Shown piece after piece: positions 2,997 to 61,755 of a stretch of 64,000 nucleotides of DNA (its first letter is position 1; the number at the start of each line of letters is the position of its first letter). This DNA comes from Heterotrichella gracilis. Taxonomy: Eukaryota > Sar > Xanthophyceae > Tribonematales > Xanthonemataceae. The DNA lies in NCBI GenBank assembly GCA_032358255.1, contig JAULBX010025187.1, positions 1 to 64,000 of the forward strand, in the 5' to 3' direction. Both the position numbers and the translations under genes were made by a program. Below the pieces are notes generated by a model. That model made no database searches. It was given only the letters and a program-made list of their open reading frames with translations, and was not told the origin of the DNA.

Positions 2997-5900
2997 ATGC
3001 CCTGGCGACCCGCGGGAATGGGGGACGAGGACGCCCTGCGTATCATGCAGCAGTCACCGCATTTTCAAGAGGTAACCCCCCCGCGGCTGGGCAGGTGGCC
3101 TGCTTGGTTGATGGTGATGCATCGCGTTGTCGTTTGCACACGTGCATTCCAAAAAGGACCATGCACTAGCACTTTATTTTTGTACACCCCCACCTGTTCA
3201 CCTTCGCCTACCTCATGCCCACCCTGTTGTCAGAGGACTGTACATTGTGACTGCTGCAACGCAAAATGTTTGCCACACCCACGCCACATGCTGGGCCCCT
3301 TGTGTGGGGTTATAATGCCATGCCTGCATCAAGTGCATATGCTGCTTGGTGTCAGCCTTTCTTGCTAGCTCACTTCCCCAACTAATGTGAAGACCAGTCA
3401 ACCTTTTCGGAGATGTAGTGCTTGGAGTTAGTTTGGGCTCCTTTGGGCCTGTCAGTTGATCTGGCACTGCCTAGTGTCTGTATCTTTCTCAACTTGTGTA
3501 GTGCGGGGAAGGGTAAGGCCTGGTGCCCAGTGGCATATCGTACTGCCAGCTCTTCATAGGGGTTCGGACTGCATGGTGCAGGACAGGAGTTCATTGCCAC
3601 TGTTGGTGTTTCCATCCCTCCTGGGGGTACAGGCTGCAACTGCGACCCACCACAAGGCGCCCTTATTATCATATGTATTTTCCACAAGGTGCCCATTACA
3701 GGCTGCAACTGTAACCCACCATGTGTTGGTCACCCCCCCTTTACAGGCGGTGGCAACGATCCTCTCCAAAGTGTATCCCCAGCCCGCCATCGCAGATGCG
3801 CTCATGCAGCAGCTGACTGTGGAAGACCTGGCCAACAGGTGAGGTGGCACTAAAGGGCGGTTTTGGCCAAAATAGCCCAGGTTACGGTGCTTGAAAATAA
3901 GTCTTCTCATTTGAATCTCCCGTCAAAGTGGTACAAGCAGTGCAAGGACAGGAATGGGTGCCGCACGCTTGTGCTAGGCTGCTGGGTGATCTGGCTTTTG
4001 TGCTGGAATGCTTGTATTTATCATCTTTAAAAGGCCATGGGGTTTGCACCTTGGCCAAACCAGTTGTTGTGCTGGGTGCGCCGATACTCTTGACTATGCT
4101 GTTGCCAGGCTTGTGCTGCCAAGCTGTATTTCAACCTGCACCACCTGTTCACTGCAGGGGTGTGTGTGGGCCCCCGCACGTGTTCTACGCGCTCCTCAAC
4201 CAGGAGCTGTACATGGTGTCGTCCATGTATGAGGCACAGGCCTCACTGGAACCAAGCACGTTTGAGGTATCATGATTTGATTATCAACGTAACAGGAATT
4301 TTGAGGCAGTGAAGAGGGAGCCAACCCAGGCTCATTAGACCGTTGGAACATGAATGAATATGTGGATGTTGATTCAAGGCTTGACAATGCCCGAGGACCT
4401 GCGTCTTTTCAACAGGAGCAAACCAGCTGGGACTTACTCTGCTGCGTGTTGCAGGACACGGAGGAAGCGCGCTCTGGTGACTGTGCAACAGCCCTGGTGT
4501 CGGGTGGGGTGCTGGGGATGTTCCCAGAATTTGAGGACCCCCGCCTGGAGGAGTCCTTCTCACGGTGGCACAATGCCCGCTTGAAAAAATATGACTGTCT
4601 GCTGGGTGCCTACAGCGCTGCAGCTATCGGACTGTCTTGTATCAGGTGAGCAAGATCAAGGTGTAAGCTTTAGGTTACAGCCTAGTCACTTGCATGGGTA
4701 CAGACATGAAATTATGACCGCATGAAAATGTGCACTTCAGTGTTTTGCCATGAATTGAAGGTGCAAAATGCGACAAGGGAAAAATCTAGTTGAACACGGT
4801 ATTAACCAAAATCAATGTGTCTTTCATCAGGGCGTTCGTGGGAGGCAGCACCACTGTCGGGGTCGCAGCAGTGCTCAGCGTGGCGTGCGTGTCTTGGCCG
4901 CTACTGCTGGCACCCCTGCTGCCCACCTGGTATGAAGACGTGCGCGCCATGTTTGTCATTCTCAACCGCCTGCTGCGGCTGCTGGTCACCGCCACGTGTG
5001 CGTTCTGCGGCATGGGAGGCCCTGCGAGCAAGGTGCGGGACAGGACTGGCTGGGGCATGGAATGTAGGGCAGGTTGATTATCTGGCTGTATTGCTGGGGA
5101 ACAGCCCAGATGCCATGAACAAAGTGCTTTGTGGGTTTTGGTGTAGAATTTAGGGTTTAGGGTTACATGTGTGAACTCTTACATAACTGGGAATTCTTCC
5201 ACGCATGTCTCGTATAGCGCTGGGTGTTGAGCGGTTGCATCTTCCATGTGATGTGACATGGATGTTTGCCATGTAGATACCACCTGGGCTGGGCATGTTC
5301 CTGTCAAGCAGCACGGCGCAGTGCTCCTTTTGCTGCTGCAGGTTGTGGCTGACTGCACCCAAATGCGGTTCAGGGTCAAGGGTTTAGCCTGACTGGAACC
5401 CACATGTGTTTAGGGTCTAGGGTTTAGGCTGACTGGAGCCCATATGCTGCAGGCTGTGGCTGACTGGAACCCCTATGCCACCGCGGGCATCCTGCTGCTG
5501 ATGCCATCCATCCAAGCTGTGGGAGGGCAAGTAAGTGTGGTATTGGGCATATACTCGTGATGCATCGCATGACAAGCAGGTGCTGTGCAGCAATTTCTTG
5601 GCATTCCGCTGGCACCCATGCCGCCATCTAGGGATTTGGGGTTGGCGCCCTCATGCCGCATAATAGAAAAGTATTTTGTAACGAATGCATAATAAATCAT
5701 TAAAGCTTGCTTGTACATTTCCCGCTTTACTAAGCTGCGGGTTCCACCATGTTTTTTCAAATTCCTGTAATGCCCTGCAGCTGCGCATCAAGCACCAGCT
5801 CCCGCTCCACCTGCTGTGCACCTCCCTGCACCTTGTATACGCGTACCGGCTGTGCCCGGGGCCGCTCTCAGACAGCAACGTGCCCCTCGACATGGTCTTC

Positions 5901-6038: not shown

Positions 6039-6202
6039 CCTCCTGGAAAGGGCTGCCGCCAGGTGCTTGCGCGGCAGCGGCAGGAGCAACTAGATGGCAA
6101 GGCGCACTGGGAGTGACCTCCTGGAAAGGGCTGCCGCCAGGTGCTTGCGCGGCAGCGGCAGGAGCAACTAGATGGCATGGCGCACTGGGAGTGACCTCCT
6201 GG
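5978..6202 (+). repeat. 78-bp tandem repeat, three copies, spanning a stop codon
   Basis: Units begin at 5978, 6056 and 6134; the third is cut short after about 69 bases. The period is 26 codons. Each unit encodes the same C-terminal peptide (ending KAHWE or MAHWE) followed by TGA in the same frame, so only the first unit is translated as part of the membrane protein and the other two lie in the 3' UTR. Copies 2 and 3 are nearly identical; copy 1 differs at a few positions. Confidence 0.92.
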
Positions 6203-7984: not shown

Positions 7985-10900
7985 TCACAACTCGTCCTTC
8001 CCGACACCCTGACCCCGGTCCCCCCCACTCCCACCTGCGCCCAAACCAGCCCCAGCACCTCCATCCGTCCCCACCCGCCGCCCTGCATCCCCAAGCAGCC
8101 CCTTTAACCGCTGCGCCAACCCAGCAACCTCCCCCACAAATTCTGCCATGTCCTCGTCCCCTTGCAACGCCTCCAACCGCGACTCGAGCTGCACCAGTGC
8201 GGCCCCCACGCCCTGCCGCCGCATGCCCTCCGCCCCCCCCTGGTGCGCCCCCACCGCCAGAAGTGCAAGCAGCGCCTGCGTGCAAACAGCCACGATCAAC
8301 GACATATTCACAGTAGATATGTCGATTGGACCGATCACCCCATTGCAATAGAGTCACATTCGACTTTCATGGGTTCTACATTCGGCATCTCACTATAAAT
8401 CGTCATCCAACCCACGATCACAATCACAGTTGCAAGCAGTACCTTCTCATTCACATCCAGGCTCTCCTCGTGCAGCATAGCTGCCACTGCCTGGAGGAAG
8501 GCTGAGTCATGGAGCGCAACACGCCACGTGACCTGCTGGCCCTGTAGGGCAGACATACATTTGGTAACATTTATAAACGGAGATACATGTGATACAATTT
8601 GGTACCTCACCAAGAAAGGATCCATGGGAACGTGATACAGTCGACATGCATCTCTTAATCACATCCTATTTCCCATCTCACAAACCAACTGTGGCACCAG
8701 TTCCACGCCTGGCGTAGCGTTTAGGGTTTGAGGTGTAGGGTTTGTCTACCCCACGCACCAACTGCGGCTCCAGCTCCACACCTGCTGTAGGGTTTAGGGT
8801 TTGAGGTTTAGGGTTTGTCAACGCCACGCACCAGCTGCGGCTCCAGCTCCACCAGGTCAGTGATGAGGTTGAGCGCCTTGAGCCTCAAGGGAGGAGGCGT
8901 GGCGCCCCCCGCCACCAGTCCCTGCAGCTGCGCCACACCACCCGCAGCCAGCAGCAGGCGGCGCCAGGCTCCCAGGTTGCGCGCTAGGCAAGCCAGGCAG
9001 TAGAGTGCCTTGGTGGCGGCGGCTGGGTGGCGAGAGTCGATGACCTGCGCATAGCAGCACAGAGGCAAAGTTTTCTTTTCGTGGTAATTTCTTTTTCATC
9101 GAATTGCTCCTCCAGTAGTAAGAAATTCACGGAAAGAAGAATAAAAAATTGAGCAAGCAGCGCCAGACTGGCAGGTTACGCGCCAGACAGTAGAGTGCCT
9201 TGGTGGCTGAAGCTGGGTGGCGCGAATCAATGACATGCGCATCGCCGCACACACACCCTCTTCTCTGGTTGTGGAACACGAGAATGTATTCTGGAAGGTT
9301 TCCCTTCCCCAATGATTGTATCAGATAAATCTTCGTTACACACAAACACATAGGGCATTCCAAGCCGTCATCAGCTTATTGCCCTGTGTGCCCTTCATTA
9401 CATCCTCATTTGTTCACTACCGTAACCATCATATGCAGCATGGGCCCCACCTGCAGCAGGCTCCCCACCACCCCCGGGTGCAGCTCCAGCAGCTGCTGCT
9501 GGAACTTGACGTTGTTGGAGGCGGCGGTGCCCAGCACGTGCGCGGCGGCAGCAGCCACATGCGGATCACTGTCATCCAGGGAGTATACCACTGGGGCCAG
9601 GCCACCCAGGGTGTGCAGGTCTGCGGCGGATACAACTCGTTCATCACTCAGGGGGGTAGATGTTACATCCAAAAGATTTATATAAGAAGTGTCCAAATAA
9701 TCATATTAATATATCCATAAAAGATTCGCCTGTGTGAGTGCATGCATGTGGCAACTTTCCAGCATGTTTGAGCACACGTTTGAGCGCTAGGTAAGTTTAG
9801 ATGGTTGGATGATCCAAGGCAGTCGGTAATACCGCACAAGCTACCGTACACGCAACATGTCTCCCTGACATGCACTGTACACAGTGCAAAACAGCAAAAG
9901 GTTGTAGCAGTGAGAAAAGCCCGCCCCACCGTTTGGAAGCCCGCCTCACAGTTTGGGATGCAGACTTGTTGTTGTCAATTGGCTCCACCGGGTTACATGG
10001 TTTAGGACCAGGGTTTTAAGTGTTTGCACCAAGGTGCCTCACCATTTGCATTGTCAATTGGCTCCACCAGATACCGGAGCGCTGTCAAGGCACGCTGCTT
10101 GTCTTCTGGGCTGCTGCTGCTGTTGGATAGCAGTGCAGCCGCATCCTGCAAGCAGTGGGTGCTACTGTGAGGAATAATGTGGCAGTCTGCGATGGTCCAC
10201 CACGCAGCGTTTACCCTGTTTAAATAAAATTTATTTCATTTTGTCTTGTATAAAGTACATCGCTGAACAATAGCAAAACATGTACCATGCACCAGTGCGT
10301 TCGCAGAATGAGACCTTTTGAGGCACACAAAGCTTGCAGCAGAATTGACTGAGTTGTTTGTAGGGGAATCCTGCACTTAATACTACCGGTATCTTCTTTG
10401 TGTGACACATGTACATGTATGCTGGCAGCCAGCCGCACCCACCTGTATCAACTCTGCCTCAGCAGGCTCCTGCTTCATCACCTCAATCAGCTGCACCAGC
10501 AAATGACCTGTCAGCACATTGCTGTCATGCATATAATGGATCGGTGGGAGAAAGAAGCGCCGCCATCTTGACGTACGGCTGCCTTTTTCCTGAAATGAGC
10601 ACGTTCTCGCAAACATTGTCGCTGGCAGTCAGCATACACTGGCGACTCCTGCTCATCGGCATTAAGCGGCAGGTTGGACACAAAAGAATCAAAACATTTA
10701 TTGAAATGCTCTGGTCGGGATTGGACTTTCTATTATGCTACCCTGAAGCATTCAATTATGGACTAGTAACATAGGCACTTGCCTGTTTCACTTTCTCCTG
10801 CTTCTCTGCTAGTGTCTCTCCTGCCAGCTGCGACATAACCGCCTGTTCCTTCAGCACTTCGGGGTCGCTGTGCTCTACAGCGGGACAGCAACAAAATCAA

Positions 10901-12019: not shown

Positions 12020-14785
12020 ATGAACTCCAACAACCAAGGGCAGCCCTTGCACAGCAAACGCAAGGAACCAGACGGGTAGGGCTACTCCGCATACCTCAGG
12101 ACCAAGCCACGACTTTTCTAAGCCACTCATTTCTCACTTGGTCGTATTGTGACCTTTCTCTTGCATGCAGTGGTAGTCAGGCCAACAAGTCAGGCAGCAG
12201 TGCTCCTCAGCCATCCCGGCCCCGGATACAGATACCCTCTTTCTCAGAGGTGAGCCCGTGGGTTTAAAAAGCAACCATGTTAGTATTGAGCTCTAGCATG
12301 TGCGTGAACATCGGTAGGAGGTGCACTCTTTCTGTGGCTGGATTGGGATGTACACTGCTAGCACTTGGGAGCTCTGTGCTATTTGCCTATTTGTCTGTTA
12401 TTTGGCCTTTTTGACCCGGGTGGGAGGAGCTCCCGGGGCTAGCTACGGCGCTGCCCTCGATACTCATCTATCTATCTATCTCTTGGGTCCACCAACCCCC
12501 AGCCTACCCTAAAAGAGACCCTAAAACCCTGAACCCTAAACTGGGATGTATATTGGGAGCACCATCAACAACTCCCCAGCAGGGTGGCAAAGGGACACAC
12601 AGTCACATTTCATATAATTGGCTGCCGCAGGTCCAAGCAGCGCAGCGGCCCACTCAGGCCCCTCTGCTGTTCAACCCTGGCAGCAGCAACACGGCAACAA
12701 ACCCCGCACACCCTGCACAGCCCGCTGCTCCTGCTCCTCATGACTACCGGTACGCCTCACACAGTTCTGGGCCACACGTATACCACTGCCCCCCTGTCAC
12801 TGGTGTCCCATTTCAAAAACTATGCCGATTTCGTGTAGGTCACCACCGCCAGCAGTGCACCCTGCTACCCACTCGCTTGCCCACCCATACCCAGCCGCCC
12901 ACCGTGATGCCCACCCTCCCTCCAGCCACGCAGCCCCTGCGCAAATGGGCCCGCCACAAGGGGTCTCAAGAGGTAGTCATCCGGGACAAGGTACCTGCTT
13001 GGGTGCCCATATCCATCCATTGTCCTGTCCCAGCAATGGTTCATTCCTTTCTGCACTCCTTTCTGGGAAACAGATCCCTTTTACTTTGTACATGCACCAT
13101 CTGATGCCTTACCATCAGCTAAACCCTAAAGCCTAAAAGTAAAAAATCCTGCAGCTAAGTACTCACATGCCTACTGCGTGATGCCCGCAGGCCCGTCGGT
13201 CTCCCCTGTGGTCGACAATCGTGCAATCGCTCCTCTTGCGGCCGCCGGGCCCCCCGCCATGCCCTCCAACCCGCCGCTCAATGCAATTGTTGTGAGCCGG
13301 CGCCAGGAAGGTAACCCCGTGCTGCAGCACATCCGCAATGTGCGGTGGCAGTACGGGGACATTGTGCCAGACTATCAGGTTGGCACCAATGCATGCGTGC
13401 TGTTTCTCAGCCTGAGGTACGTGTGCACTAAAACCCTACACCCCAAACCCTAAGCAGCGCTGTGGCACACTTAGGTGTCGAACTTGAACATTTCTGGTAA
13501 AAATGCGTTTAAAACTTGTTGCAATAGGAGCAAAAGGTCCATGTGCAGTCTGCAACATGCTGTACTGATGAGCATGGCTGGGGCTCAGTATGCACCAAAA
13601 CGTCCTGCATGGTTGACTTAACCTGAGAGAGAGCATGCCTCGCCCATTTTCGACTGTCGCAGCAATGGCCAGCCAATCTCATATGTATTCAGGACCCAGC
13701 TGATGGATTGGAATTAATGTTGTTTCTCATTTCTTTCTGCTTTCTGCCTGATTGGCGCAGGTTCCATTTGCTGAAACCCCAGTACATCCACCACCGCATC
13801 AAAGAGCTGCAGCGCAGCTTCCGCACACGCATCATCCTGTGCCATGTGGACGTGGAGGACGTTGTGGAACCGCTGGGCCAAGTCATCAAGGCGGCAATCT
13901 ACAATGATTGCACGCTGCTATGTGCCTGGAGCCTGCTGGTAACCCCTGCCAATTGCTTGAACTCATACCTCCCAATCGTACCAATGATATCACTATACAC
14001 AGACCCTCACAGACAGGGTGCATTGCACTCGCTACATGACACTTTGATAGCGTTGCTACAGTTAATATAATTTAACGCACTGGCGCGCATTGCTCATCCT
14101 TCACTGATGTTTTCAAACATGGCAAGTTGTTATCCTTGCATTTGCACCGTCACTGGTGATGGTGACACATGGTTTTCCCACGGTGCCGTAGGAATGCGCG
14201 CGCTATCTGGAGACCTTCAAAGCCTACGAGAACAAGCCTGCAGACAGCATCCAGGAGCGCATCGAGCACGACTTCCAGTCGCGATGGAACGCAGCATTCA
14301 CTAGCGTGCGCGGCGTGAACAAGACCGACGCCCACACCCTAGGGGAGCGGTTCAAGTCCGCCGCGAACGTGATCAACGCCAGCATGGACGATCTGGCAAA
14401 GTGCCCCGGCCTGGGACCCACCAAGATCAAGCGCCTGTTTGACACTTTCAACGAACCCTTCAGGAAAACCCTAGTTCCCCGCAGCCTGGCGATTGCAGCA
14501 CCCACAGCTGCTGCAGTGGTTGGAGGCAACGCCGTGCCCGCCATTGGGAATACAGCAGGGGCCAGCGGGAGTGCTGTGGATACGCGGATCGGCAATGCGG
14601 GAGGCGGGGCAGCGAATGCAGTGGTGCCAATCAAAAGCGAGGGTGGGTCTGCTGAGCCTGATGCAGCAGCTGAAGGCGAATCAGGCGATGAGGTAGCGTT
14701 TGACATGCATCTGGACCTAGACATGGGTGTCCATGAGCTGTATGATGATGGCACTGAAGACGAGGATGATGATGATTTCCAATGA
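12020..14785 (+). CDS. ERCC1: DNA excision repair protein ERCC1/RAD10
   Basis: Non-catalytic partner of the XPF/RAD1 nuclease that cuts 5' of lesions in nucleotide excision repair and acts in crosslink repair; nuclear. Seven exons, 12020-12075, 12171-12249, 12631-12749, 12839-12972, 13191-13416, 13761-13938 and 14192-14785, join in frame to 461 residues. The first 160 residues are low-complexity, rich in Pro, Ala, Ser and His. The central XPF-like domain without nuclease motif starts at about residue 165 with [20 protein letters not shown] and includes [11 protein letters not shown] and [13 protein letters not shown]-terminal tandem helix-hairpin-helix follows at about 300-360 ([27 protein letters not shown]). 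A Gly/Ala-rich tail ends in an acidic stretch of Asp and Glu, an addition compared with animal ERCC1. The ATG at 12020 gives the only open first exon. Confidence 0.94.
12511..13452 (+). repeat. Telomere-like CCCTAAA tracts in ERCC1 introns
   Basis: CCCTAAA-type runs occur in intron 2 (about 12511-12541), intron 4 (about 13117-13137) and at the start of intron 5 (about 13430-13452, within 40 bases of the exon 5 donor). A CTAT microsatellite lies at about 12468-12482. The tracts are degenerate, with two to four units each. Confidence 0.8.
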
Positions 14786-22500: not shown

Positions 22501-25252
22501 CATACCTCCATCAGCTTCTGCGTCTCCTCGCTGATCAGCTTCTCGCAAGCCAGCGCAGCGTGCGTCAACTTCTGCTGCTTGAACTGTGCAAACCGGTACT
22601 CCAGCGCAGCCTTGTACCGCTCCTCATTGGCCCTGTGCCCAATCTAACCTAAGTGACCATTTACATACATGCGTTCTACCAGTACAGCAGAAATAGCAGC
22701 CACGCTTTACAAACCATGATATGACAGACATGCACCTTGGTGGCAGGTGCGGGTGTCCCGCCTGTGGCAGTCCGGAGCCAACATGGTCAACTTAGCCGGC
22801 ACCATACCTGCGCACAGCTTCCTCCCCGATAGCGCCCTCCTCAAAGGCGGCAGCAGCCAGGGAAAGCGCCCGGTGGTGCTCCCGCTCCAGCGCTGACTCG
22901 TCTGCCGCCACCGAGGCGTTGAACGACTCGGCGTAGGTGCGCTCCGCGGCGTCGGCGGCGCGCCGGCACTCTGCCTCTGCCACGCCCTGGGTGGTTTGCC
23001 CACAGTCAAGGATAGGATGATGACCCTTTGCTGAGGTACTAAGGGCGCTGTTACGAAATTCTAAGTTCACATGCGGTGAGTTACAGCAAAGGATAAGGGG
23101 AATTATATGCTGTGCAGTGCAATGCTCCCATGGTCAATGGCGTGTCTGGACACGCCATTTGGAAATAACTACCGTACATTCCACCTCATAATCGCAAGAG
23201 TTTCACCCCTGAGGAACCCCAAGGTACATACCTGCCATGCTGTGGCGATGGTAGGCACAGCACCCTCGTTGATTGCCTTCACATATGCCTCCGCCAAGCC
23301 TGCCAGCAGCGCCCCGGTGACCAGCTGGTTGCCCAGGCGTTTGGGCTGCGCCTTGCTGAAAATGAAACTGGTCAATTTTTGGAGGCCCTGCACACACCGG
23401 AGCCAGGCAACTGTTCACAACAGTTGCATTGGATACAGCTGCGATGACAGGTACTGCATGCAAGATGTAACCTACACTTACGGGGATCAAAGTGCGTCAT
23501 GGATGGAATTGGTGGAGGACAGTACGCAGCATTGAATGCATCCTTGCCATCAGGCACCGCATGCCAACCTTTTAATGCATGTGCGCACCAGCAATGGCGT
23601 GGGCCGCTGCAGTAGAACGGACTGGTGGCATGGCATGCATGGTGGCATGTCGTGCAAACAGGCACCAAGACGAAACCCCCCCACATGTACTTGTCCCCAT
23701 TTATGCACAGCCATGCACATGCTGTGCAGCACGTGTCACCAACATGCTAATTTTACTATTTAATGGGTATGCAAGTGAGACAAATGCGCGCATGCAGAGC
23801 AACACGCGCCTCCCTAAACCCTAAACCCTAAACAGGACGTGCCTCCCGAAACTCTGGCCTCATATCTGAGGGGGGCAGGGTCTCCAGCTTGGCAAGCTTC
23901 CCCTCGTCATTGATTGGCCGAACCAGGGTGAAGCAGTCGCGGTCGGGAAACAGCGCTTTGATGGACTCCCGGATCTGCACACATGGATGGGTTTTGGTGG
24001 TGCAATCAAACACAGACGCTGCATGCCGGTGAACTGAGACGAGGTTCCGTGGGTTGGATGCAAATTGCAAACTTGCTGTAAATCCCACCTTGTTTTTTGC
24101 CTTTGCCGCCTCCCCTTGACCTGCTATTGACTGCAGTGCAGTTTCCAGGTACTCTTTTGGCGTCACCTGCATGGCATGTATGATGAGCACCATGCGCAGG
24201 CACAGCTCGACTCCATGCTGGACAATAAACCATTGTAAGTTCATGTGACTATCGATGATGGTTCACTGGAAGACAAAGGTGCAAGGTGTGCATACCGTGC
24301 GCCCCTCCTCTTCAAGCCGCAGGTAGAAGTCACGCAGTAGCCACAGGAATGAGGGTGTGAAAGTCGCCAGCTCAGACTCGTTCCCTTCTCCTGTACCGAG
24401 GCACAGGAGCTTGTCAATAGAGGAAGGACCCTGCGTCATGCACGGGCCAGGACTGCCTGGCGCCTGGTCACTGGTAGTGAATCCATATAGAACATGCACA
24501 CAACTGCACAACTCTGCCAGGACGGGCGAAGCACAGCCTCAACACCGAGCAGAATCCAAGCTACAAAGTAGCTCAAACAGCGTCCCTTACCTCCTGACCT
24601 CACTCTGATGTGCTTGGTGACCTCAGTTACAAGGGACAGCCTGTCCAGTGCTGCTTCGTCGATGCCACCCATCTGGTTGTACACAAACAGGCTTGACAGC
24701 AACACCGCCAGAGAAAAGATCTGGGTGCTGTACTGGCCAGTCTGATCCCAGGCATCGATACCTTCAGTGTCCAGCAACACCTGCAGAGGTGTTTGTTTGG
24801 CTCAACAACAAGGACAATGGGTTTTACAAAACTGAAGCTTTGGTCTAGTGCTGTTCAACGTGACTTACCAAGTGGTATTTGCTTCCATCTGGGTTGGTCC
24901 TCTCCACAGGTGAAGACCACATCCACAAGCCCTTTGTGCACGGTCTGTGCGTGGGTGCCACCTGAAACCCACTACTCTGCCCCAGCAACTGATTCAAGAT
25001 GAAGCTCTTGCCCTGGCGAGCACGCCCACTGACAGCCACCACACCCATGGGGCCTTTGACCTTGCGCAGCACAGTGAGAGCCTGCTCCCCAAGCTCAAAC
25101 TTGTTTGTCTCGGTGTTGTATCGGATGAGCTCCAACGGGATGCCCCCCCCTTTTACCTTGACGCCTGAACCATAACCATGGCTCGATGAGGCTGGTGGAG
25201 GGCCTGCAGGGGCCTGACCACCCGGCCCTGTCTGCCGTCGAAAGTATTGCAT
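19524..25252 (-). CDS. Guanylate-binding protein (GBP)-like large GTPase
   Basis: Dynamin-superfamily GTPase of the GBP family. Fifteen exons in order: 24869-25252, 24591-24780, 24296-24390, 24089-24166, 23843-23974, 23232-23387, 22808-22986, 22506-22632, 22252-22322, 21768-22014, 21380-21550, 20898-21073, 20379-20535, 19962-20085 and 19524-19726; all phases agree and give 829 residues. The P-loop GRARQGKS is at 76-83, and the switch II motif DTEG at 132-135 (VLLDTEGIDAWDQTGQYSTQIFSL). The family's Arg-Asp guanine-specificity motif is in FLWLLRDFYL (about 211), followed by FPDRDCFTLVRPI. The C-terminal helical domain begins about residue 295 (LQKLTSFIF, GAVPTIATAWQ). Residues 400-760 are coiled coil rich in Ala, Gln and Glu. 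The tail (MTIQQIKQWLMENGHEDKAW) looks like the short SAP-like helix pair of plant GBP-like proteins. Plant members act in defence condensates; the role here is unknown. Intron 5 starts with GC. Confidence 0.93.
20152..20209 (-). repeat. Duplicate of the GBP-like exon 14 5' edge in the preceding intron
   Basis: About 55 bases match the start of exon 14 and its acceptor (20055-20109), 97 bases away. The copy keeps the GTGCAG acceptor and the in-frame AMQAGDEARK, then diverges, and runs into a possible GTAAAT donor. It could act as a cryptic or alternative exon, but it has no further support. Confidence 0.75.
23813..23834 (-). repeat. Telomere-like tract beside the GC donor of GBP-like intron 5
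   Basis: Three CCCTAAA units on the plus strand lie less than 10 bases from the non-canonical GC donor at 23841-23842. Confidence 0.85.
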
Positions 25253-33900: not shown

Positions 33901-36659
33901 ATGGGGAACTCGCTCAGCTGTTTCAGCCCCAGTGATGGCACAGCGTACGAGACGATCAGCACGACGAACGATGCATCTGAAAGGTACAAGTCCTTGAATG
34001 GCAGGTCAACTTCCACGACACACGAACGGGCAGGAACCAAACCAAAGGGCACAGCCAAGGCAGGGACAACCAAGCCTGACACAAGCATCGGCCAGAGCCA
34101 CGCGAAGAGGTATCAGGGCAGCGTGCAGCAAGCAGACGGATCCACCTCACCCAAACTCCGCTCCGGCAAGCAGAAAACCGCCGAGGACGGACCTAAGGAT
34201 GTGCGCCCTGGTGTTCCACCTCACAATACCTCCCACCCAGTCCACGCAAGCCAGAGGCGCTCTGGGGATGACAGGCTGAGTCATGTTGCGGGCAACCAGC
34301 GCAGCGCCAGCACCACTTCCAGCCAGGCCCATACCAGTCAGAGAAGGCACGCTGAGACCGAAGACACAGGCAAAGGGCAGAGCCGCGCGGTTGGGAACCA
34401 GCCCTGTGCACAGCCTAGAGGGTGCACCTCGCAAGGGGTCCAAACCAGTCAAGAGAGGCACTCTGAGGGTGAAGTGGCAGGGATAGGGCAGAGCCATGAT
34501 GTAGTGGGTCAGTACACTGCACAGCTTGAGGCTACCACCTCCCACCAGGTTCATACCAGCCAGGAAAAGGACGCTGCGGGTGAGGGTGGGCGGGGACAGT
34601 CTGCAGGTGGGCCTGGCGAGAAAGAGGATCCCTTCATGGATTGGCTTTCTGCAACCCCTCCTGGAGTGGACAGCGCTTTCACTGGCCCACCGCCCTTCCC
34701 CGCATCGCCACCAACCTCCCAGCCACAGGCCAGCCCCATCCTCACCACGCCGCAGCCAGTGCCACCCAAAAGCCACACCCAGCGGCTGGAGAGCCAACAC
34801 AGCATCCCGGAAAGCCAGAGCAGTGTCCCCGAGCACGGCGCCTTCCGGATGCCCTCCCTGACCTTCACCTCGTCTGGCGAGAGCACACCAAAGTCTGTCC
34901 AGATGGCCAAGTCGCTGTACATCCCGCAACCGCCGCAAGCCGACGCGTTTGAGTCAGAAACTGCAGCCAACTTGGTGCAGTGGCAGCTCCGGCCTGAAGA
35001 GGTGCAGTTCAGCCTGGATGAGGCTGGCAAGCGCGTCCTCCTGGGTGGCGGAGGAATCGCACAGGTGTGTTCAATTCTGGTCACGGGTACATGTGATGGC
35101 ATGTGCACATGGACATGCTTTTCTACTGCAGGCTGTTGCAGCTGGGCATGCAAGGGGTACCAGCAGTCAGCTCATAGGTGCATCCATCTTGCTTGCAAAT
35201 GCATGCAGATACATAGACCAATGGCTGTACCTAGGTGGCACAGCACACCCACAGCAGAGGCGCCCATCACAGCCTCCCTTCAACGTAGTACTTGTTCGCC
35301 TTGTGCAGGTATTCCTGGGCGTGTGGAACGACCTGGACGAAGTTGCTATCAAGGTGCCGGTGAACAAGAGCCTGCTCATGCCGCGCAACATGGTGCGGGA
35401 GGTGGTCACGCTGTGCAAGCTGCGCAACTCGCGCATCGTCAACTTCTACGGGCTGGTCCAGCTGGAGGGGCAGCTGATGGTGGTGATGGAGTACATGGCG
35501 GGGGGCAGCCTGGGTCAGGCCCTGGACAAGGGCTTCTCATGGGCTGACGGGTGAGTGCATATCCACTTACAAAAGGAAGAAGAAATAGTGAATCAGCTTA
35601 CTGTGGCTTATATCTGTCATGCCACCGTGGCGGGGCAGTCCTGACGCTAGCTGTGCCCACGTCGCTTGCGCATTACCCCAGCCGTTACATTTCCTCCAAT
35701 TTTGGTGCATGAACCTCAGAGAGCCTCAAACACTCACATATTGTGTGTTGCATAGCTGTCATCAGGCCACCTGTACATGCCGTGCTTGCAGCTGAGCGCA
35801 CTGCGCAAACCCTAGACCCTAAATATGCTTGCCATGGCTTGCAGGGGACGGGAAGTCGCAATTGCCATTGCTGAGGGCCTTGCGTACCTGCATGCGCGCA
35901 AGATCATCCACCTGAACATCAAGCCAAGCAACATCCTGCTGGGTAAATCTGTGGCAGATGTGAAGCTAGGGGACGTGGGGATGGCTGCCGTGCTGCCCAA
36001 AGATGTGTCGGGGGTATATGATATATATGGAGCAGGTGAGGACTAGGACTACGCTCTGTGTAGGACAAATTCATCCTGCAACCCAATCTGCACAGCTTGG
36101 CACCTGCATGTGCAGTTCACAATTTCTAGCCTCTGAGAAAGGCACCCGCCTTCATTGTACATGTATGCACCACCGATGCCACAGTGCTGCTAGTCTCGTG
36201 ACATGGATGCGATTGGTTCGCCACATCAATATCCAGGTCTACAATTTTTCCAGTAATCGACAGATCCAGTCCAGAACCACAATCACCAAGTGACGATGAT
36301 GACATGGGCGACAGGCCACCTTGGACCACACATACGCCCCACCCTGCTGCATGTGCCCTCTCTCCTCAACCCTAAACCCTAAACCCTGCCCGCCTTTTCC
36401 CCCAGGGACGCACGCCTACATGGCGCCGGAGGTCCTCAACTGGGGCAAGGTGCGCCCATCAGCCGACGTGTACAGCCTGGGGGTGGTGCTCCACAACCTG
36501 GCGGGCAGCCCCGCACCCCGCGAGCGCGGCCAGGCGCTGAAGCCGCCGGCTGACTGCCCCGCTGCTGTGGCCGCCATCGCAATGCAATGCCTGCAGCAGC
36601 GGGGTGAGGCCAGGCCTCAGATCAGGGAGGTGCTGCAAGTGCTGCGGGCATGCCGGTAG
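33901..36659 (+). CDS. Lipid-anchored protein kinase-like protein, probable pseudokinase
   Basis: Four exons, 33901-35064, 35309-35550, 35845-36035 and 36406-36659, give 616 residues. The N-terminus MGNSLSCF fits N-myristoylation at Gly2 and S-acylation at Cys7, so the protein is probably on a membrane. Residues 10-340 are disordered and hold about four degenerate repeats around H-T-S-Q-R-R (near 115, 144, 181 and 218; spacing 29, 37, 37). The kinase domain starts at about 375 with a Gly-rich loop (LGGGGIAQVFLG). The VAIK lysine (403), a helix-C Glu (about 419), VVMEYMAGGSL and the MAPEV segment with DVYSLGVVLHNL are present. The catalytic loop reads HLNIKPSN (491-498), with Asn in place of the catalytic Asp, and DFG reads DVG (512-514). 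The domain looks like the TKL/RLK group. Loss of the HRD Asp predicts little or no phosphotransfer. Confidence 0.9.
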
Positions 36660-41369: not shown

Positions 41370-44300
41370 TCACGTGGTCAAGCAGTCTGAAACCGCCTTT
41401 TGTCGCCGTGGGTCCAGCCACAATTTCTCATCCCCGCTGTCCCCTCCACTGTCCCCATCGGTGTCTGGCTGGTCACCAAACGGGTCCAGACCACCAGTAG
41501 CCACTCTCGGTTGGAATGTCAGGAGCCCATAGTTGTCGTGTTGCATGTGAGGATACATGGGCACAGACGGGTCATCATGGGGTGGGTACTCCACGTCCAC
41601 CATGAACAGCCCTTCAGCATTGGCAACAGTCCAACCCCTGTGCCCCTCACCTGCAGCAGAACCACCAGGGATTATTACCATAAGGTGGTGCTGCGGTTGC
41701 AAGCCATTTCTGTAATTATAATAACAACATCGACAACATGGTGGATAGGTATATGTCGGTGGTTGCTGATACATCACAACGTGTACCAACCTACCCACGG
41801 CGGCATGCATGCATCATGCTGCATGATTCGCGTGCTGGCAATGTCACGCTGGCAGTGGGGACCCACCTGGCATCTGTTGCCTCCCCAGGCTCAGTAGGTA
41901 GGGTATGTGTGCCTCCTCCATTCTGCCCCTGCCCACTGCCACAATTGCGCCAACCATATGCCGAACCTACAATGCATGTTTCGTGTCAAATTGTAACCCA
42001 TTTCATACATTGCACGAAGGACATCCTGAAAGCATCCTGCATACTCCGCATGGAGGATACTTACCCCATGCATTGCCAAGTGCAACCGCAATTCCAAGAT
42101 AACACAACTCACACGTCAAGCTACCACCATGTTCCATGGCCAGCATTATAATAGAATGGCCTGGCGACAGTGGTGGCATGTGCACTCATGGCGCATGCAT
42201 GCTGCCTCCAGGCAAGGTTCCATCCCATGCAGCACCCTTCACCTGCTTGTACAAAAACCCGCTGCCGTGCACTTCAAAGCGCAGGCCCCCGTCGATGTCC
42301 ACCACATCCAGCCTGTGGACCACCTTGACGGGGTTGCGATTCTTGCCGTCGTTGGAGTAGTTTGAGAACCAGGTGAAGTCGTGGCGCCCCACAAAGTGTT
42401 GCGCCGCGCGCCTTCACAGTCAACAAGCATACAGATTAGAGTAGCCATGAGGCAGCCGGGAGGCTCATATTCATTATCATATTACGGTAAAATTATATTA
42501 ATTCCTCAAAATCCCTAATTCAATCAGATTCGAATTTCAAATTCCAGAAATTTCAGAAAAGATAAACACATGGCGAAAATGAGGGGGCCAGAGGAATTTG
42601 AAGGTAGACTATCTGTAGGAGTTTTTGTATACCCTCTCTCTGGATGACTATTAAGTGACAATGATTAAGCCGAGCTTCACGCCTACAAGCTGTGTGCCGC
42701 CCGTGCAAATAGACCATGCAAAAACCCTAGGCAAGGGCTTACCGCATGGCAGCCACATCCACCTCGCGCATCACATGGCCTCGGTGCTTGTACGTAAATG
42801 GGTCGAGCACCTGCCCCACATGTAGGCAATAGTGGTACGTCTTTGATAACGCACTGTACCGCAGTTGAAGTCCATAGGCATTGGGCACACCTGCAGCAAC
42901 AGGTTAAATATGAATGAACCACTGGCACGTCGCAGATGGGATGCGTCTATGATGCATGCATGTCTTTTGCAAGCCGCTGCCAGCATCATACAAACCCTGC
43001 TAAGGCAATCCCCTAGTGCACAGGGCGCTTTCAGCAGCACATTTCCGACAAAATCACGACCTACATGTTTGACTCGAATGCTCTTGGGTAGTCGGGAGTT
43101 GAGCGAGAACAGCAGCTTGTGGGACTCATGCTCACGGCTGGTGAGGAAATTGACCACCTGCAAACAAGGAGGTCAATAACCTATGAAAGGGTTTACATTT
43201 AGGTAATCCCCAACACCCTAACCTTAAACCCTACCGGTGCAGGTGGCGTCTGACCACCTGCAAACAATACCACGGCACCCTTGCTCGTCAATGATCAATG
43301 CATACAGCATCTGCCCATGCACCCCTGGAACTTATCAAAGTGCAAGCATTAGTATTGGAAGGTGCCACCATGCATGGTGCACCATGCACATGTCAGTGCC
43401 CATTGCCCTGCCACCCAAGCACACCCCACACCATCCCTACCTGGCCCAGCGCGTGCACACCGGCGTCGGTCCGCCCTGCCGCCTGCAGCCACAGCTGCTG
43501 GCGCGAGTCCTGCGTCACCTCAACCAGCGCCTTCTCCAGCATCTCCTGCACAGTCACCCTGTTGCAGCCGCGCTGCAGCTGGTACCCGTGGTACCTTGCC
43601 CCGTCGTAGGCAATGACCGCCTTGTAGTTCCACAGCCGGGCAGGCTCCTGGGAGGGTTAGGGTTAAGGTTAGGGTTAGCGGTAGGGTTCTTAAGTACTTG
43701 CGTATTGCAAGGTACCGACCACTTGCGTGTTGGGGTCCCCAGGTGGGATGCATCCGACAACAACGGCCACACTCCATACAATCTTGCCGCTGCCAAAACT
43801 AGCCCCATATGATATGAACCTACATCAATAAGCTTCCTCGTGAGGCAACTATGCCACTGGGCGCCAGGGTTCCCCACGCACCTGGGAGGGTTCGGGCGCA
43901 CCGAAGCGGGCGCTGCGCTCGTGACCCTCGGTTAGGGTTTCTGTGGGTTGCGGGGGTTCCGGCGAGGAGGCGGTTGTGGCGGGTGGAGGGGAGGGTGCAG
44001 CAGTGGCTTGAGGCTCGGTAGAGCTGTAGGCACGTGTTGCGCGGTGTTTCAAGGCATGGTTGGGCTGTGTAGGCGCTTTTGGGAGGGCTGGTGAGGGTGC
44101 TGGCAGGCGGAGGGCGGTGTGGAGTGCAGAAGCTGTGCGCGTGGAGCTCCAGAGGACCCTTGCACGCATTGTGTGGGTAGGCTGAAGGTGGGCAGGCCGG
44201 GCTAGTTTGGCTGCTGTGTGGGGTATTGTGGGTGCTGCTGGTCGCTGGCTCTTTGTGGTACAAGGAGTGTACTGTGTAGGTTGGTAGACCTGGCGCACTG

Positions 44301-45829: not shown

Positions 45830-48808
45830 TCATTCAGTAAAATACCGGTCCCCAAATTCCCCAACACCCGGCACCACCTGAAACTGCGTGTTGATGCGCT
45901 CATCTATCTCACTGGTGATCACCTTCACCTTGGCGTAGGACCCGCACAGCTTCCGAATGCCCTCGGGCGCCGCGATGAGCGACAAAAACAGGATCTTGCC
46001 CTCGTCCACACCCTTCTCCAGCAGTACCTGCGCCAGAGACGGAGATTGAGTCATAAAAGACGCAGGCACACATGCACCGCAGACCGGACAGTCACATCCT
46101 CATGCTGCCTTGCACACGCTGCGATACCCAGCTCTGTCTTTGCAAACCTCATCCGCAGACCTCTGAATTGAATACATGCTGGGTATCTGTGGGAGCTGCA
46201 TGCCGCATCCATGTAGCGCAAAGGAGCTATATGCCTGCAGCATGTCATTCAGGAATGAATGTAGTTTGGTACCTGAATTGCGCGGCAGGCTGAGTTGCCT
46301 GTTGCCAGGATTGGATCCATCAGCAGCACATGGCGCTGTGCAATGTCCCTGGGGAGCTTCTCATACACAATGTCCTTCGTCATCACCTGATCACCAGTCC
46401 TGCAAGCCACGACGCACATGCGGCTCACGACTGCTTTGCCTATCTGTCAACAAACAATCCCTTTGGACTCATTAGACATGGGATCCAATCCAAGATGCAT
46501 GTAAATGCTTGCTGGACACTCTGTGTGCACATCGATTGGTGGTTGTGCACCAGCTCTGCCTGCCCCGTCCATTGCCCCCACCTGTGGATAATCTTAGGTG
46601 CATACTCTTTGGTTTAGGCTTATTGTTCAGGTTTTAGGGATTCGGATTTGAATATGGGTTGGAGGAGGGCCGTACCTGTGTATCAAGATCTTGCCTATCT
46701 TGATCCCCTTGCAGCACGCCCTCAAGGCATTCTCCATCGACTCCCCACTGCGGATGACGCTCACGCCGCACAGGCGCTTGGCAAAGTCCACTCCCACGTA
46801 CTGCTCCCCAGTGGGCGTAACCACCACCCTTTCCATGAAGGGTAAATGTCCCAGAGCGTGCTCCACAACCTGTTAGAGCATGTAAGAAAGTGAATGCCCT
46901 GCGCCATACCGATCAGGGCGTGCATGCATGTTGCCACAGATATGCTGCCAGTAGCAAGGGTGCATCAAGACCTGCTCCTTGCAATGAGTGCAGTCAATGC
47001 ACTGAATGAAAGATCTGCCATGGCCATGCATGAGCACCATACTTGCCGGGGCACAGCTGTACATGCACCGAGTGCATGAAAACGCACCACCATGGGTGGC
47101 AAGCTGGGCCATCCTGTGCAGGCATTTATTTGTAATACACATCAAAGTGCGCAGCTGATTGCTCACCAGTCGCAGCAGGCGGTCAGCATAGAACACAAAG
47201 TCCGGCTTGTCTGTGTTCCGGTCCCGAATGATGGTGTGCATGCCGCGGATCTGGAAGTTGGAGGGCAGGACCTCCAGGTTGTGGTAGATCCTCCTCAGGT
47301 CGTGCTGCTGCAGCTTCATGCGTATGTGCTCCGTGATGAGGTCAATGGCAACCACGTTGTCGCCCCTGGCCGTGCCAAACCCATTCAGGTCATTCAAAAG
47401 CATGTTGGCATATACAATGTAATGTATATGTGCCAGTGTATAGGAGGCATGGGATGGAAGTACTGGACAGGTGGCAAAGTAATGATGCCAGTGCAAAGCT
47501 AAATTTTTCCAAAAGGTTTAATTACCTGGCCCACGGGATGATGACATCTGCAAACTTGCGGCTGGGGGCCACATACTGGTCAAACGCAGGCTTGACAAAC
47601 TTGGTGTACTGCTCAATGACCCCCGCCACATCCCTTCCGCGATTCGTCACATCCCGCTGTATCCTGCAAGTGCAAAAACAAGCTCAGTCAAGCCATCCAA
47701 ATTTGAGGCCTGCCCACAACGCCATGTGCAGCCAAATGTGTGCATATAGGCATGTAGTGTAGCGAGTAACAAAGATTTAAAAAAATGCATCCATGCCCAT
47801 CCATGGAGGCCATGCTGGTGGCCCACAGACAGGCGGCATGCCAACTCCTGCTCATATGTTAAAAGGGCATGCCCATTCCTGTTCACATGTAAAAGGCCAG
47901 CAGCACGCACCGCCTCGCCAGGCGCACGTCGTCGTCTGTGTCCACATAGATCTTCATGTTGAGCAGCTCCCTGACCTCCTGCACGTGCAGCACCAGGATG
48001 CCCTCCAGAATGACCACATCCGCGGGTGGCACCCTGCGCGTCTCGGTGGACCGCTGGTGCGTGGTGAAGTCATACACAGGAATGTCCACTGGCTTCATCT
48101 CCTGCAAAGCAATACCGCGGGGAGGAGTCAGCATCCTGAAGGAGCTGCCTGCTATGGCATGCAATGACAATTGGCGGTGACTCAACCATAAGGTGGGGTG
48201 TAACTGCCTCAATTTGGTACGCACCCGTAGTGCGTTCAACACCCTGAGCAGCTCCTCGTTGTCAAACGCATCAGGATGATCGAAGTTGAAAGCTGCAAGG
48301 GAGAAAAGGTTAGCGATCGGGTCCAGACAAGACACCTGCGCCTTGTTTGTGAACCCCGTGGTCCATAACAAAGAAGGCGCAAGAAGTGCAAGGCAACCAA
48401 CCCAGAGTTACTTACATCCAGCGTGCTCTTCCTCTGTGAGTCCACGATAGAACGAGTCTTGTGACAGCATCACCACGCACTGGTCATGCAACCTGTAGAC
48501 AGACACAAGCAATGGAGTTGAATTACCGCCAAGGATGACAGTGCAAAAGCTGTACTTTGATCACCGGTGCATGAATTCATTCCCAAACAGCCTCACCTCT
48601 GCATAATATAGTCACAAACTGTGGTTTTGCCTGAGGCTGTGCCTCCAGCAACGCCGATGAAGAAAGGCTGGGACCGCTGCCTCCTAGCACCCCTACTTGT
48701 AGGACTGACACTGCAGCCCGTGTCGTCATCAAGCTCTTTGCCGTTGGAAAGAACGTTTATCCGGAGCTTTGAAGCAACGCTCTCGTTCAGTCCAGCAGGC
48801 GAAGCCAT
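45830..48808 (-). CDS. Uridine kinase / uracil phosphoribosyltransferase fusion, copy 1
   Basis: Pyrimidine salvage: an N-terminal uridine/cytidine kinase domain makes UMP or CMP from nucleosides, and a C-terminal UPRT domain would make UMP from uracil and PRPP (in many plant members only one half is active). Nine exons in order: 48597-48808, 48416-48492, 48225-48292, 47911-48101, 47526-47663, 47167-47365, 46676-46869, 46273-46399 and 45830-46027, giving 467 residues. The ATG at 48808 (GCCATGG) is chosen over upstream non-ATG codons. Kinase: Walker A GGTASGKT at 55-62, [84 protein letters not shown], the PRPP loop [21 protein letters not shown], and the uracil-binding end GVGEFGDRYF. It heads a tandem pair. 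Confidence 0.95.
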
Positions 48809-51392: not shown

Positions 51393-54798
<3,406 letters not shown>

Positions 54799-59302: not shown

Positions 59303-61755
59303 ATGGCCTGGGCAGCGCTGTTCTGCATATGCCTGCTGGGCCTGCTCAGTGAAGGGGTGCTAGGTGTTTGGCAAACAGGTGTGTACTGTCTTCATCTGCA
59401 GTGGCTTGCCTTGTCTCCAGGCCCTTGTGGTGCTCGCTCCCACTATCAGCAGGCCAGTAGGCCACCCTCCTTTACAGTTTGCTTCCCTTACGGTTGTATG
59501 TCTTTCAGGGGGAGATGACGTTGAAAGCATACTGCGAGGTTTCAGCTTTCGCACTGGAAAGCATCTGCTAGCCACCACACGGGGTGAAAGTATTCACACA
59601 GTACATCAGCCAGTCAGAGGTCTACAAGAGCAGCAAGTGAAAGCAAAAAAGCGCAAGAAGAAGAAGCCAGTCTCTCAGCAGCACGTCACCACAGACAGTG
59701 AAAGCCAGCAGGCTGCAGAGGAGTATGGCACAACAGCAGTAGAACCCGTAGTCCCAGCTTCCACACAGGCTAAGCTGATTGCAAACAAGTTCCCAGCAAC
59801 CTATGAGGACACAGAGGGGAGCGGTAGCCCCACCACTACCACTGCCAGCTATGGCGAGAGTGAGGCACCAGTGCAAGTTTCCCTGACCAGCTCAAAACAC
59901 AAAAACACACAAAGCACCAGCGTACAGGCTGCTCAGAACTATGCACGGCAAGGTGCAGGCCAGACCACTCGCTCCAAACCCACCAAAGGGACACAGGCGA
60001 AACAGTCTGCAGCTGGACACCAGGCGGAGGAGGAGAGTAAGCCAGTGGGTGGTGAGATCTTCCACGTGCAGCGGTCGTCTGTAGATGACGTGCCGCAAGA
60101 CGCGCCCCAAACCGCAGGGCGGATGGCGGTGACTGGGGTACGTCCCTCCACCATCGGCGGGCCTGCAGTTGGCACCAAACCCGCCACCCAGGTTGGCGGT
60201 GATCATGGGAAACAGGTTGTTGTTGGCCACCCCAAGGTTACCCACAGCAACACCACTGCCGTGACGCAGCATCCAGCAACCAGCGAGGGCTATGTGGCAG
60301 CAGTGGTGAAGGAGCAAGCCCCCACAGAGGAGCACACCGATGATAGCAGGTAATGGGAAGGAGCACCCATGCGAAACAATGTGCATATCACCCCAATGAG
60401 GTGCCAAATTTGAGGTATCTCTTGTCCAAGCCGTGGCGAGCTGCTCTTGGCATGTACTGCCATCAACCTGAGCAAAAATACAGCACACCTCAAATACTGA
60501 CAACGAGAACCACAGCGGCAGCTCTATATCCCTCACATAGTCCCACTGTTTGCAGGCACAGCACAGCAGGCACAGCACAGCAGGCAGAGGAAGCGGCCTA
60601 CAAGGGTGCGCTTGCAGCCAACAGTGTGCCTGCACTGTCACAAATACACCAGTACAACAGCGCCTGGATAAGGTGAGGCGGAACACTGACTACTGCACCG
60701 CTACTCTAGCGAACAGCTACCCTAATAGTCAGTACCCTAATAAATGACCTATTCACAACAGCTGATTGCCAAGCAATGAGGTTGCAGTCGCTGACACATG
60801 CCCTGCATCGTGTCATCGGCATGGGGGAACATCAATGACAGCATGTGTGAAATTCGATGACAACATTGCATTGAGGCCATAACTCAGAGCCACTGGCACT
60901 GTTTCTGGACTAGGTACCGGGTGCATCCTATCTGAGTCTTGCCATGCGCCATTCGTATCCTGGTGACCTATATGTTGGCTACTGACTGCATGCGTGTATT
61001 TTTAACTGTGTGCTTGCACATTGGCAAGCAGGCAGGATGCATGGACATGTTGACGCAAATTACAGAACCCTGCTGGGGTACGTTTACCTTGCAACTTGGG
61101 AGGTTGAATTATTCGTGTTGATGCGGTTGAAAATAAAGCATAAGAGAATGGAAAAATAATTAATACCATCACCTGCCACCACCTCTGCGTTCACCGTCAT
61201 TCGTCCTGCACCTGTGACTTCCCCCTCCTGTGCATGTGCAGTGTGACGGTTGTGCTGGCGCTGGCGCTGGTGCTGGCTGCTGCCACGCTGACCGCCTACA
61301 AGCGCTGGCGCAAGGAGCTGCCGCAGGTGGTGGACGTCTCGCGCTTCACCAAGCTGTCGTACTCTAGGTAGGGCTCATGTGCATACAAAAGCGCACCTGC
61401 GGAAAGTGAGGGTGAGGGGTGGGTGGGGCAGGAGGGTTGCTACAGGGTTTAGGGATTTTGGCTCGTTTCACCTTCACCTGCAAAAAGTGAGAGACGAGGG
61501 GTGGGTGGGTGCTACAGAATTTAGGGTGTAGGGTTTTGGCCCGTTCTCACTTTGCGGCCCCTGTGCAGGCTGAACCCCTTGACGGTTGGCCTGCCAACCT
61601 CGGTGGGGCGCCGGACTTACGAGTCTGACTCGGATTGGGACGACATGAGCAGCATGCGCCTGGGCCGCCGCAACCGCTCGCTCTCCTCCGCGCCCCTCAT
61701 GGTGGGGACCAGGGCCAGCAGCGCTGTGGTGCACGGGAGGGCACCCAGCCGGTAG
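59303..61755 (+). CDS. Predicted type I membrane protein with signal peptide
   Basis: Five exons, 59303-59363, 59509-60349, 60556-60672, 61242-61367 and 61569-61755, give 443 residues. The ATG at 59303 (AAATGGCC) opens a signal peptide (MAWAALFCICLLGLLSEG). A disordered region of about 300 residues, rich in Ser, Thr, Gln and Ala with a Lys patch (KAKKRKKKKP), follows. A short helical stretch precedes one transmembrane segment (VTVVLALALVLAAATLTAY, about residue 341-360). After it comes a basic stop-transfer sequence (KRWRKELP) and a Ser/Arg-rich cytoplasmic tail (YESDSDWDDMSS, RRNRSLS). No catalytic or adhesion domain is recognised; a secretory-pathway or plasma-membrane scaffold is only a guess. 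Exon 3 contains a short in-frame repeat of CACAGCACAGCAGG. Confidence 0.78.
61394..61556 (+). repeat. 81-bp tandem duplication with telomere-like motifs in the last intron
   Basis: Two diverged units start at 61394 and 61475, each beginning CACCTGC and containing GGGTGGGTGG, then a TTTAGGG-type motif. The second unit runs up to the acceptor region of exon 5. Confidence 0.85.

Follow-up and report, generated by a model that had tools for sequence, protein, structure and literature searches.

Short tracts of the heptamer TTTAGGG, or of its complement CCCTAAA, are scattered through the window analysed here (the first 64,000 bases of contig C269, JAULBX010025187.1, of the Heterotrichella gracilis assembly), where an earlier note made from the letters alone had seen them beside exons and interleaved with copies of exon edges. 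Why should a telomere-like repeat be found at such positions? The genome is eukaryotic and comprises 68.5 Mb in 903 contigs; the window is intron-rich and alga-like. The tracts proved to be concentrated in introns and near splice sites and to be often enclosed by local duplications. With moderate confidence we interpret them as short pieces of the organism's own telomere repeat that were inserted when staggered breaks in genes underwent error-prone repair.

TTTAGGG is probably the telomere repeat of this species, because a perfect six-fold repeat sits at contig starts. It was found on 16 contigs, and on seven of them (C70, C140, C526, C609, C712, C717 and C770) it lay within 300 bases of the contig start in CCCTAAA orientation; end-of-contig position was judged for those seven only, the lengths of the other nine not being shown. 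The three-fold TTTAGGG occurs at 834 places in the genome and the reversed pattern at none.

Position of the tracts in introns and near splice sites

Genes were predicted with a small hidden Markov gene finder of our own, trained on the window and C2:1-200000 (together the 264-kb sample). It converged on 72 genes with 375 introns and on a sensible splice consensus, CAG/GTRNGT ... TGCAG/. Introns made up 104.6 kb of the sample (40%), intergenic DNA 78.5 kb and coding DNA 80.8 kb. A Pfam scan of four window models matched Fes1 (the SIL1-like gene, PF08609), tRNA pseudouridine synthase (TruA, PF01416) and ERCC1, and gave no family at E 0.001 for the membrane protein. The window had no match in Rfam at the gathering threshold and none in a tRNA scan.

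The window contains 26 copies of TTTAGGG against a mean of 4.7 in shuffled sequence, and none of 100 shuffles reached 26. The motifs form 24 clusters, of which 19 lie in predicted introns of 11 genes, four are intergenic and one is in predicted coding sequence (CDS). Fifteen of the 19 intronic clusters were within 100 nt of a splice site, in agreement with the earlier note, which placed tracts in introns of at least eight genes, often at about that distance or less.

In the sample, 92 of 113 TTTAGGG motifs were intronic, 20 intergenic and one coding, whereas the control GGGATTT gave 23, 11 and four, respectively. Of the strong intronic tracts (those with at least three telomere 7-mers), 43 of 92 lay within 30 nt of a splice site compared to 21% expected, a value reached in none of 5000 permutations. 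The donor side of the permutation test was clear (30% against 10.5% expected, 0 of 2000). Counted in all seven registers, the density of 7-mers 6-30 nt after donors was 10.6 (sense) and 10.1 (antisense) per kb, falling to 1.8 to 4.7 per kb at 30-150 nt and to 0.75 beyond. At 6-30 nt before acceptors, the density per kb was 7.9 in the CCCTAAA orientation and 0.6 in the sense orientation; deeper in the intron the ranges were 2.4 to 6.9 and 1.7 to 3.6, respectively. Reversed controls stayed at 0.1 to 1.8 per kb at all distances. The scarcity of sense tracts near acceptors probably reflects avoidance of AG there. Altogether, a telomere 7-mer was present no more than 70 nt from one or other end in 94 of the 375 predicted introns.

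Pattern counts over the whole genome, made independently of the gene models with AGGTRNGT as the donor-like site, found TTTAGGG 939 times and CCCTAAA 456 times within 30 bases after the site, against 237 and 148 times within 30 bases before it; the scrambled motif GATTGTG occurred 113 times after it. CCCTAAA was found 2164 times at 8-38 bases before TGCAGG and 1306 times after it. The donor contrast is strong and the acceptor contrast modest in these counts. The enrichment at exon borders that the earlier note had expected across the genome is thus seen in the sample, and the donor-side whole-genome counts agree with it.

A separate set was taken from the first 30 listed three-fold tracts, which gave 25 loci outside the training sample after five overlapping or near neighbours had been removed; these loci were chosen for long tracts. 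In this set, 23 of 25 tracts were in predicted introns, 13 of these 23 with an end no more than 34 nt from a splice site, and nine of 25 were flanked by direct repeats. The window tracts and the 25 separate loci are all internal to contigs.

Exon-edge copies and the structure of tract-bearing duplications

Tracts and copies located in the window are given below (window coordinates, strand, description).

1288..1297, plus: intronic tract in a minus-strand gene, 111 nt from the acceptor
5149..5164, plus: TTTAGGG x2.3, about 126 nt after a donor of the membrane-protein gene
5334..5355, plus: copy of the acceptor and start of exon 5453-5530, lying in intron 5033-5452, 21 of 22 bases identical
5349..5447, plus: imperfect 40-bp TRF array in which exon-start copies alternate with telomere-like tracts
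8684..8852, minus: SIL1/Fes1-like gene, 73-bp x 2.3 array of exon end, donor and tract; the real exon is 8832-9044
8744..8779, minus: SIL1/Fes1-like gene, first intronic copy of exon end and donor, 92% identical to 8817-8852, tract between
9972..9989, minus: exact 18-bp direct repeat, partner 10051-10068 inside exon 10043-10145, telomere-like 7-mers in the spacer
12506..12540, minus: ERCC1-like gene, intronic tract
13121..13130, minus: ERCC1-like gene, tract 63 nt before the acceptor
13431..13453, minus: ERCC1-like gene, tract at most about 40 nt after the donor
23812..23832, minus: minus-strand gene, three perfect repeats lying 9 nt downstream of a predicted donor that reads GC in place of GT
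31384..31393, minus: tract about 29 nt after a donor
35807..35823, minus: tract about 24 nt before an acceptor, in a gene that we take to be kinase-like
36368..36387, minus: tract about 26 nt before an acceptor of the same, presumably kinase-like gene
43151..43167, minus: acceptor and exon start of TruA exon 3, exact 17-bp intronic copy at 43251-43267, degenerate tracts between
43657..43688, plus: degenerate TTAGGG-like tract before a TruA acceptor
46633..46639, plus: tract 39 nt after a donor of paralog 1 (45830-48604), presumably uridine kinase-UPRT-like
52176..52191, plus: paralog 2 (51393-54798), presumably also uridine kinase-UPRT-like, tract about 80 nt downstream of the donor that corresponds
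60719..60740, minus: gene at 59-62 kb, degenerate tract after a donor
61394..61509, plus: gene at 59-62 kb, last intron, duplication of about 35 bp at offset 81 (61394-61427 and 61475-61509)
61444..61454, plus: gene at 59-62 kb, tract after the first copy of about 35 bp
61520..61536, plus: gene at 59-62 kb, tract after the second copy of about 35 bp, about 44 nt before the acceptor

The three places at which an exon edge had been described as reiterated around a tract were all recovered, namely the membrane-protein exon (22-bp copy plus array), the SIL1 donor (73-bp array) and the TruA exon 3 acceptor (exact 17-bp copy). The duplication noted in the last intron of the gene at 59-62 kb was recovered too: about 35 bp recurs at offset 81 with a tract after each copy, and as the two TTTAGGG motifs are 72 apart, the units are not in strict register. 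In the two adjacent paralogs, what seems to be the same intron has a CCCTAAA-sense tract after its donor in both.

Exon-edge copies were present at 15 of 88 intron ends with at least three telomere 7-mers in the sample, at six of 59 ends with one or two and at 18 of 569 with none. The first and last of these differ about fivefold (Fisher p 3.6e-6), so that copies are commoner where a tract is present, a comparison for which the earlier note had called; swapping of exon edges as a control gave 0.07 to 0.19% copies. Where there is no tract, intron ends carry exon-edge copies as often (3.2%) as introns carry local duplications internally (3.3%). Such copies are thus nothing unusual in this genome, and the excess goes with the tracts. 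A special process of exon-edge copying acting without tracts was therefore rejected. The repair or slippage process that the earlier note had placed at exon borders stands insofar as border-enriched tracts, often in a flush order of copy, tract and copy, fit staggered-break repair; the tract-free copies at background rate show that copying at borders needs no special process.

With telomere 7-mers masked, 127 local direct repeats were detected, 32 of them intronic, 56 across exon-intron edges, 18 coding, 11 intergenic and 10 mixed. The 88 in introns or exon edges (55 of them with no tract in the spacer) compare with 11 in the 78.5 kb of intergenic DNA. Local duplication was found in 7.6% of intronic test windows with a tract (overlapping windows), in 4.7% of coding and in 0.6% of intergenic ones. 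Telomere-repeat 6-mers were the most enriched in the spacers of intron and edge duplications, and a telomere 7-mer was present in 33 of 79 such spacers compared to 8.8 expected. As masking might itself shift tracts into spacers, the test was also run unmasked, with 31 of 84 against 9.6 expected. Among seven control 7-mer families, GGGTGGT was somewhat high (21 of 75 vs 13.4) and five were near expectation; the six other than GGTGGTT were within about 2.5 standard deviations of expectation.

Under masking, tract-bearing duplications straddled exon edges in 27 of 33 cases (82% vs 59% expected, 1 of 300 simulations) and those without a spacer tract in 29 of 55 (57% expected). This preference was not robust: the unmasked figures were 22 of 31 with a tract and 35 of 68 without, and duplications of the unrelated control family TGCATGG straddled edges in 14 of 17 cases. 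The straddling test was accordingly not used as support, and the border bias rests on the positions of the tracts instead. Within C2:1-200000, 33 of 86 telomere-like motifs and 42 of 109 local duplications were found in the same 40 kb, C2:120001-160000 (L043-L046).

The flanks were analysed for 110 strong tracts, 85 of them in the sample and the others at the 25 separate loci, with 2989 random intron points as control. Two flanking copies enclosed 37 of 110 tracts compared to 215 of 2989 points, and copies were flush on both sides (within 10 bases of the tract) at 11 of 110 compared to 15 of 2989. Enclosed tracts numbered 27 of 73 in introns of the sample (six flush), one of 11 in intergenic DNA and none of one in CDS; for the separate loci they numbered nine of 23 in introns (five flush) and none of two in intergenic DNA. 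The clearest loci, L018, L021 and L022, have gaps of 0-1 on either side and copies of 25-34 bp. L018 and L022 have no second exact telomere 7-mer in 110 bases on either side, and L021 has some. At C2:189606, a 50-bp exon end is followed by a tract and then by a copy of the exon end. The flanking duplications (score 12 or more) are 12 to 96 bp long. In 17 of 33 duplications the tract is confined between the copies, whose mean identity is 0.89; where further tracts lie outside, the copy identity is 0.86. These identities are consistent with a copy-tract-copy structure first and array growth afterwards.

Differences between exonic and intronic copies fell at codon positions one to three in the numbers 34, 25 and 57 (with tract) and 25, 32 and 45 (no tract), about as expected if the intronic copies were neutral on average and only the exonic copy constrained. 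The copies may create alternative splice sites, as the earlier note proposed; intact donor-like sequence is kept in some of them, among them the first SIL1 copy and L027. At the latter locus, the end of a dihydroxy-acid dehydratase exon is present in two 60-nt copies (1417-1476 and 1531-1590), both with the donor-like GTGCGTG directly behind them. The coding part of 60 nt shows four differences, all synonymous; the intronic copy may be recent, may have undergone gene conversion or may be in use. Constraint on intronic copies is not claimed from L027, as those of the sample look neutral. Intron gain at L027 had been suggested by a predicted intron of 78 nt that contains a tract and lies between 77-bp copies. 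It was also rejected: the predicted acceptor lies inside the copy of the PF00920 exon end, and an ordinary longer intron containing an exon-edge copy is more likely.

Origin of the tracts

In the mechanism that we favour, a staggered DNA break would arise inside a gene and both overhangs would be filled in, so that the stretch between the two nicks is duplicated. Telomere repeat that telomerase added, or that was captured from another place, would then give the order copy A, tract, copy A. Where the break spanned a splice site, the outer site would stay in use, and the tract and the second exon-edge copy would become intron, in which the exon-edge copy would decay neutrally; some loci would then grow into (A-tract)n minisatellites. 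The data show that the tracts favour introns and splice sites, that they are arranged copy-tract-copy, that they match the probable telomere repeat and that intronic copies decay in a neutral-looking way; from this we infer the source in telomerase or telomeric capture, the staggered-break trigger, a higher rate of breakage or capture at borders and the order of events. Since uniform breaks would not concentrate tracts at borders, the mechanism also needs either breakage that is linked to borders, a capture bias or selection. A capture bias could come about if G-rich donors such as AGGTGGGT primed telomerase in one orientation.

Several observations weigh against repair of staggered breaks as the origin. 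The excess on the acceptor side is weak (16% vs 10.5%, equalled in 113 of 2000 permutations). First coding introns are depleted of strong tracts (three of 66 vs 68 of 309), which repair leaves unexplained, as it does the scarcity of tracts in intergenic DNA. A link with transcription is unsupported because there is no association with codon bias; in the sample, neither codon bias, third-position GC content (GC3), intron GC, intron length nor CDS length predicts which genes carry tracts. Local repeats are about as frequent in coding DNA as in introns (4.7% and 3.9%), and the non-telomeric G-rich family GGTGGTT is also over-represented in spacers (21 of 80 vs 9.1). Further tracts lie outside the copies in 16 of 33 duplications, and tandem duplication of a pre-existing tract would give such outer tracts as well. 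It is the product that was seen, telomerase and breaks being deduced from it, and a genome search with window positions 4800-9700 returned only the region itself at full length, with no empty site. The gene models are ab initio predictions trained on the same 264 kb of DNA sequence only, and around copies they place some introns wrongly (L009, L027).

The outer tracts lead to an alternative in which G-rich telomere-like tracts were there beforehand and stalled replication or slipped, so that tract and nearby exon edge were tandemly duplicated; the tract would then be the cause and not the filler. The repetition of the tract within the units of minisatellites (8684-8852 in the window, and L029), the joint clustering of tracts and duplications at C2 120-160 kb and the spacer excess of the second G-rich family would all be in keeping with such instability. 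We consider it unlikely: the tract lies exclusively between the copies in 17 of the 33 duplications, the flush loci L018 and L022 have no second exact 7-mer nearby, and the original nearness of tract to border would be left unexplained. A function in splicing would account for that nearness, with TTTAGGG as a G-run enhancer on the donor side or CCCTAAC as a branch-point-like element before acceptors, kept by selection. Acceptor-proximal 7-mers (6-30 nt) are mostly in the CCCTAAA sense (71 vs 5), the 6-mers CCTAAC and CTAACC are enriched before acceptors, and in the whole genome sense exceeds antisense after donor-like sites (939 vs 456). However, the two orientations are equal after donors in the sample (95 vs 91 7-mers at 6-30 nt), the acceptor bias can come from AG avoidance, donor scores are alike with and without a near tract (5.73 vs 5.72, p 0.98), and selection for splicing predicts no flanking copies; we judge this explanation quite improbable.

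A mobile element with telomere-like ends, either introner-like or a telomere-targeted retroelement, would be expected to leave many scattered copies with an intron preference and with direct repeats like target-site duplications, all of which are seen. The insert at flush loci is scarcely more than the repeat, the duplication length is variable rather than fixed, and tracts at the two ends of an intron are independent (eight introns with both vs 6.6 expected), making this origin very improbable. The same absence of excess disposed of a hairpin or terminal-repeat idea, and inverted repeats at the two intron ends are not preferred (S/A 4, A/A 4 of 375 introns). Telo-box promoter elements sit near the transcription start, in the promoter, 5' leader or first intron; such a role is disfavoured here by the depletion of first introns. 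That both orientations occur, and that first introns are depleted, argues against the tracts acting simply as an RNA motif or promoter element. CCCTAAC, which resembles the enriched 6-mers CCTAAC and CTAACC that we take to be branch-point-like, may have a side role before acceptors.

The positions of the tracts and their coupling to exon-edge duplications make it testable whether exon-intron borders break more often than other parts of a gene, and whether repair lets introns lengthen from their ends. A wider proposal, which we regard as rather doubtful, is that telomere-repeat repair is a main engine of intron-end remodelling in this lineage. Border breaks, perhaps linked to transcription or splicing, would be patched and the border duplicated, introns would lengthen from their ends, and thousands of them would contain telomere DNA alongside exon-edge copies, spare splice sites and sequence resembling branch points. 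If so, these copies and spare sites would be material for alternative splicing.

Comparison with known systems and other repeats

Insertion of telomeric repeats at breaks is already known; what is new here is that interstitial telomeric insertions are concentrated in introns, adjoin splice sites and are rich in duplications. In mammals, passages of two papers describe how short interstitial telomeric sequences (ITSs) are inserted where double-strand breaks occur, in some cases with duplication of the target (PMC2246262, PMC7215372). Duplication is a minority there, at six of 130 ITSs in rodents, four of 25 in primates and three of 66 in horse, plus two combined with other changes (PMC2246262, PMC7215372). 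Human ITSs are 31% intronic according to the same passages, which was judged compatible with random insertion (PMC2246262, PMC7215372), and testing whether intronic telomeric repeats affect splicing was called interesting (PMC7215372). The tracts described here are like mammalian ITSs, as portrayed in these passages, in being short internal tracts of the organism's own telomere repeat with marks of break repair at their flanks, and duplications from staggered breaks are documented in mammals too. They differ in placement: 92 of 113 motifs are intronic where introns are 40% of the sample, so that the random placement with regard to introns reported in human was not found, and about a third of the strong tracts lie between copies. 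Mammalian insertions appear as scars with seemingly random placement, whereas the tracts described here are directed to splice sites, and many of them come with duplications of exon edges.

Rice insertions were reportedly described by Vaughn and Bennetzen in 2014 as tandem duplications after patch-mediated breaks. In a passage citing work on rice, insertions of 10-1000 bp at such breaks, many of them local duplications, are attributed to nearby nicks (cited in PMC7407515). They share local duplication with the loci described here; telomere repeat and splice-site bias do not appear in that cited account (PMC7407515). According to an abstract, fill-in of complementary 3' overhangs at breaks by CST-Pol alpha-primase, followed by end joining, yields small tandem duplications (PMC8355091). 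The fill-in logic is shared, and telomere filler is absent from the abstract.

Direct repeats and filler DNA at intron edges have been discussed, in the part of the source seen, as signs of repair in intron gain (PMC3296678). Compared to intron gain by tandem duplication or double-strand-break repair as outlined there, existing introns here appear to be extended at their ends, and no newborn intron is shown. Introner elements are described in excerpts as intron-confined repetitive DNA with direct repeats at exon borders (PMC7789003). Unlike introner elements so described, the present tracts have neither paired inverted repeats at the two ends nor a fixed duplication length. No report of this pattern in algae was found in the literature, which was covered mostly as titles, abstracts and passages, with subscription journals little represented; the available parts of the Trebouxia and Coccomyxa assembly papers mention telomeric repeats and not intronic tracts.

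Two other repeats were detected in the window. A 78-bp tandem repeat at 5978-6202 (2.9 copies, 96% alike) spans the end of the membrane-protein gene and extends past its stop codon. In an intron of the SIL1-like gene (9335-9399), a stretch of about 60 bp matches at least 38 other places in the genome with 83-91% identity, several of them at contig starts, and represents a short dispersed element unrelated to the tracts.

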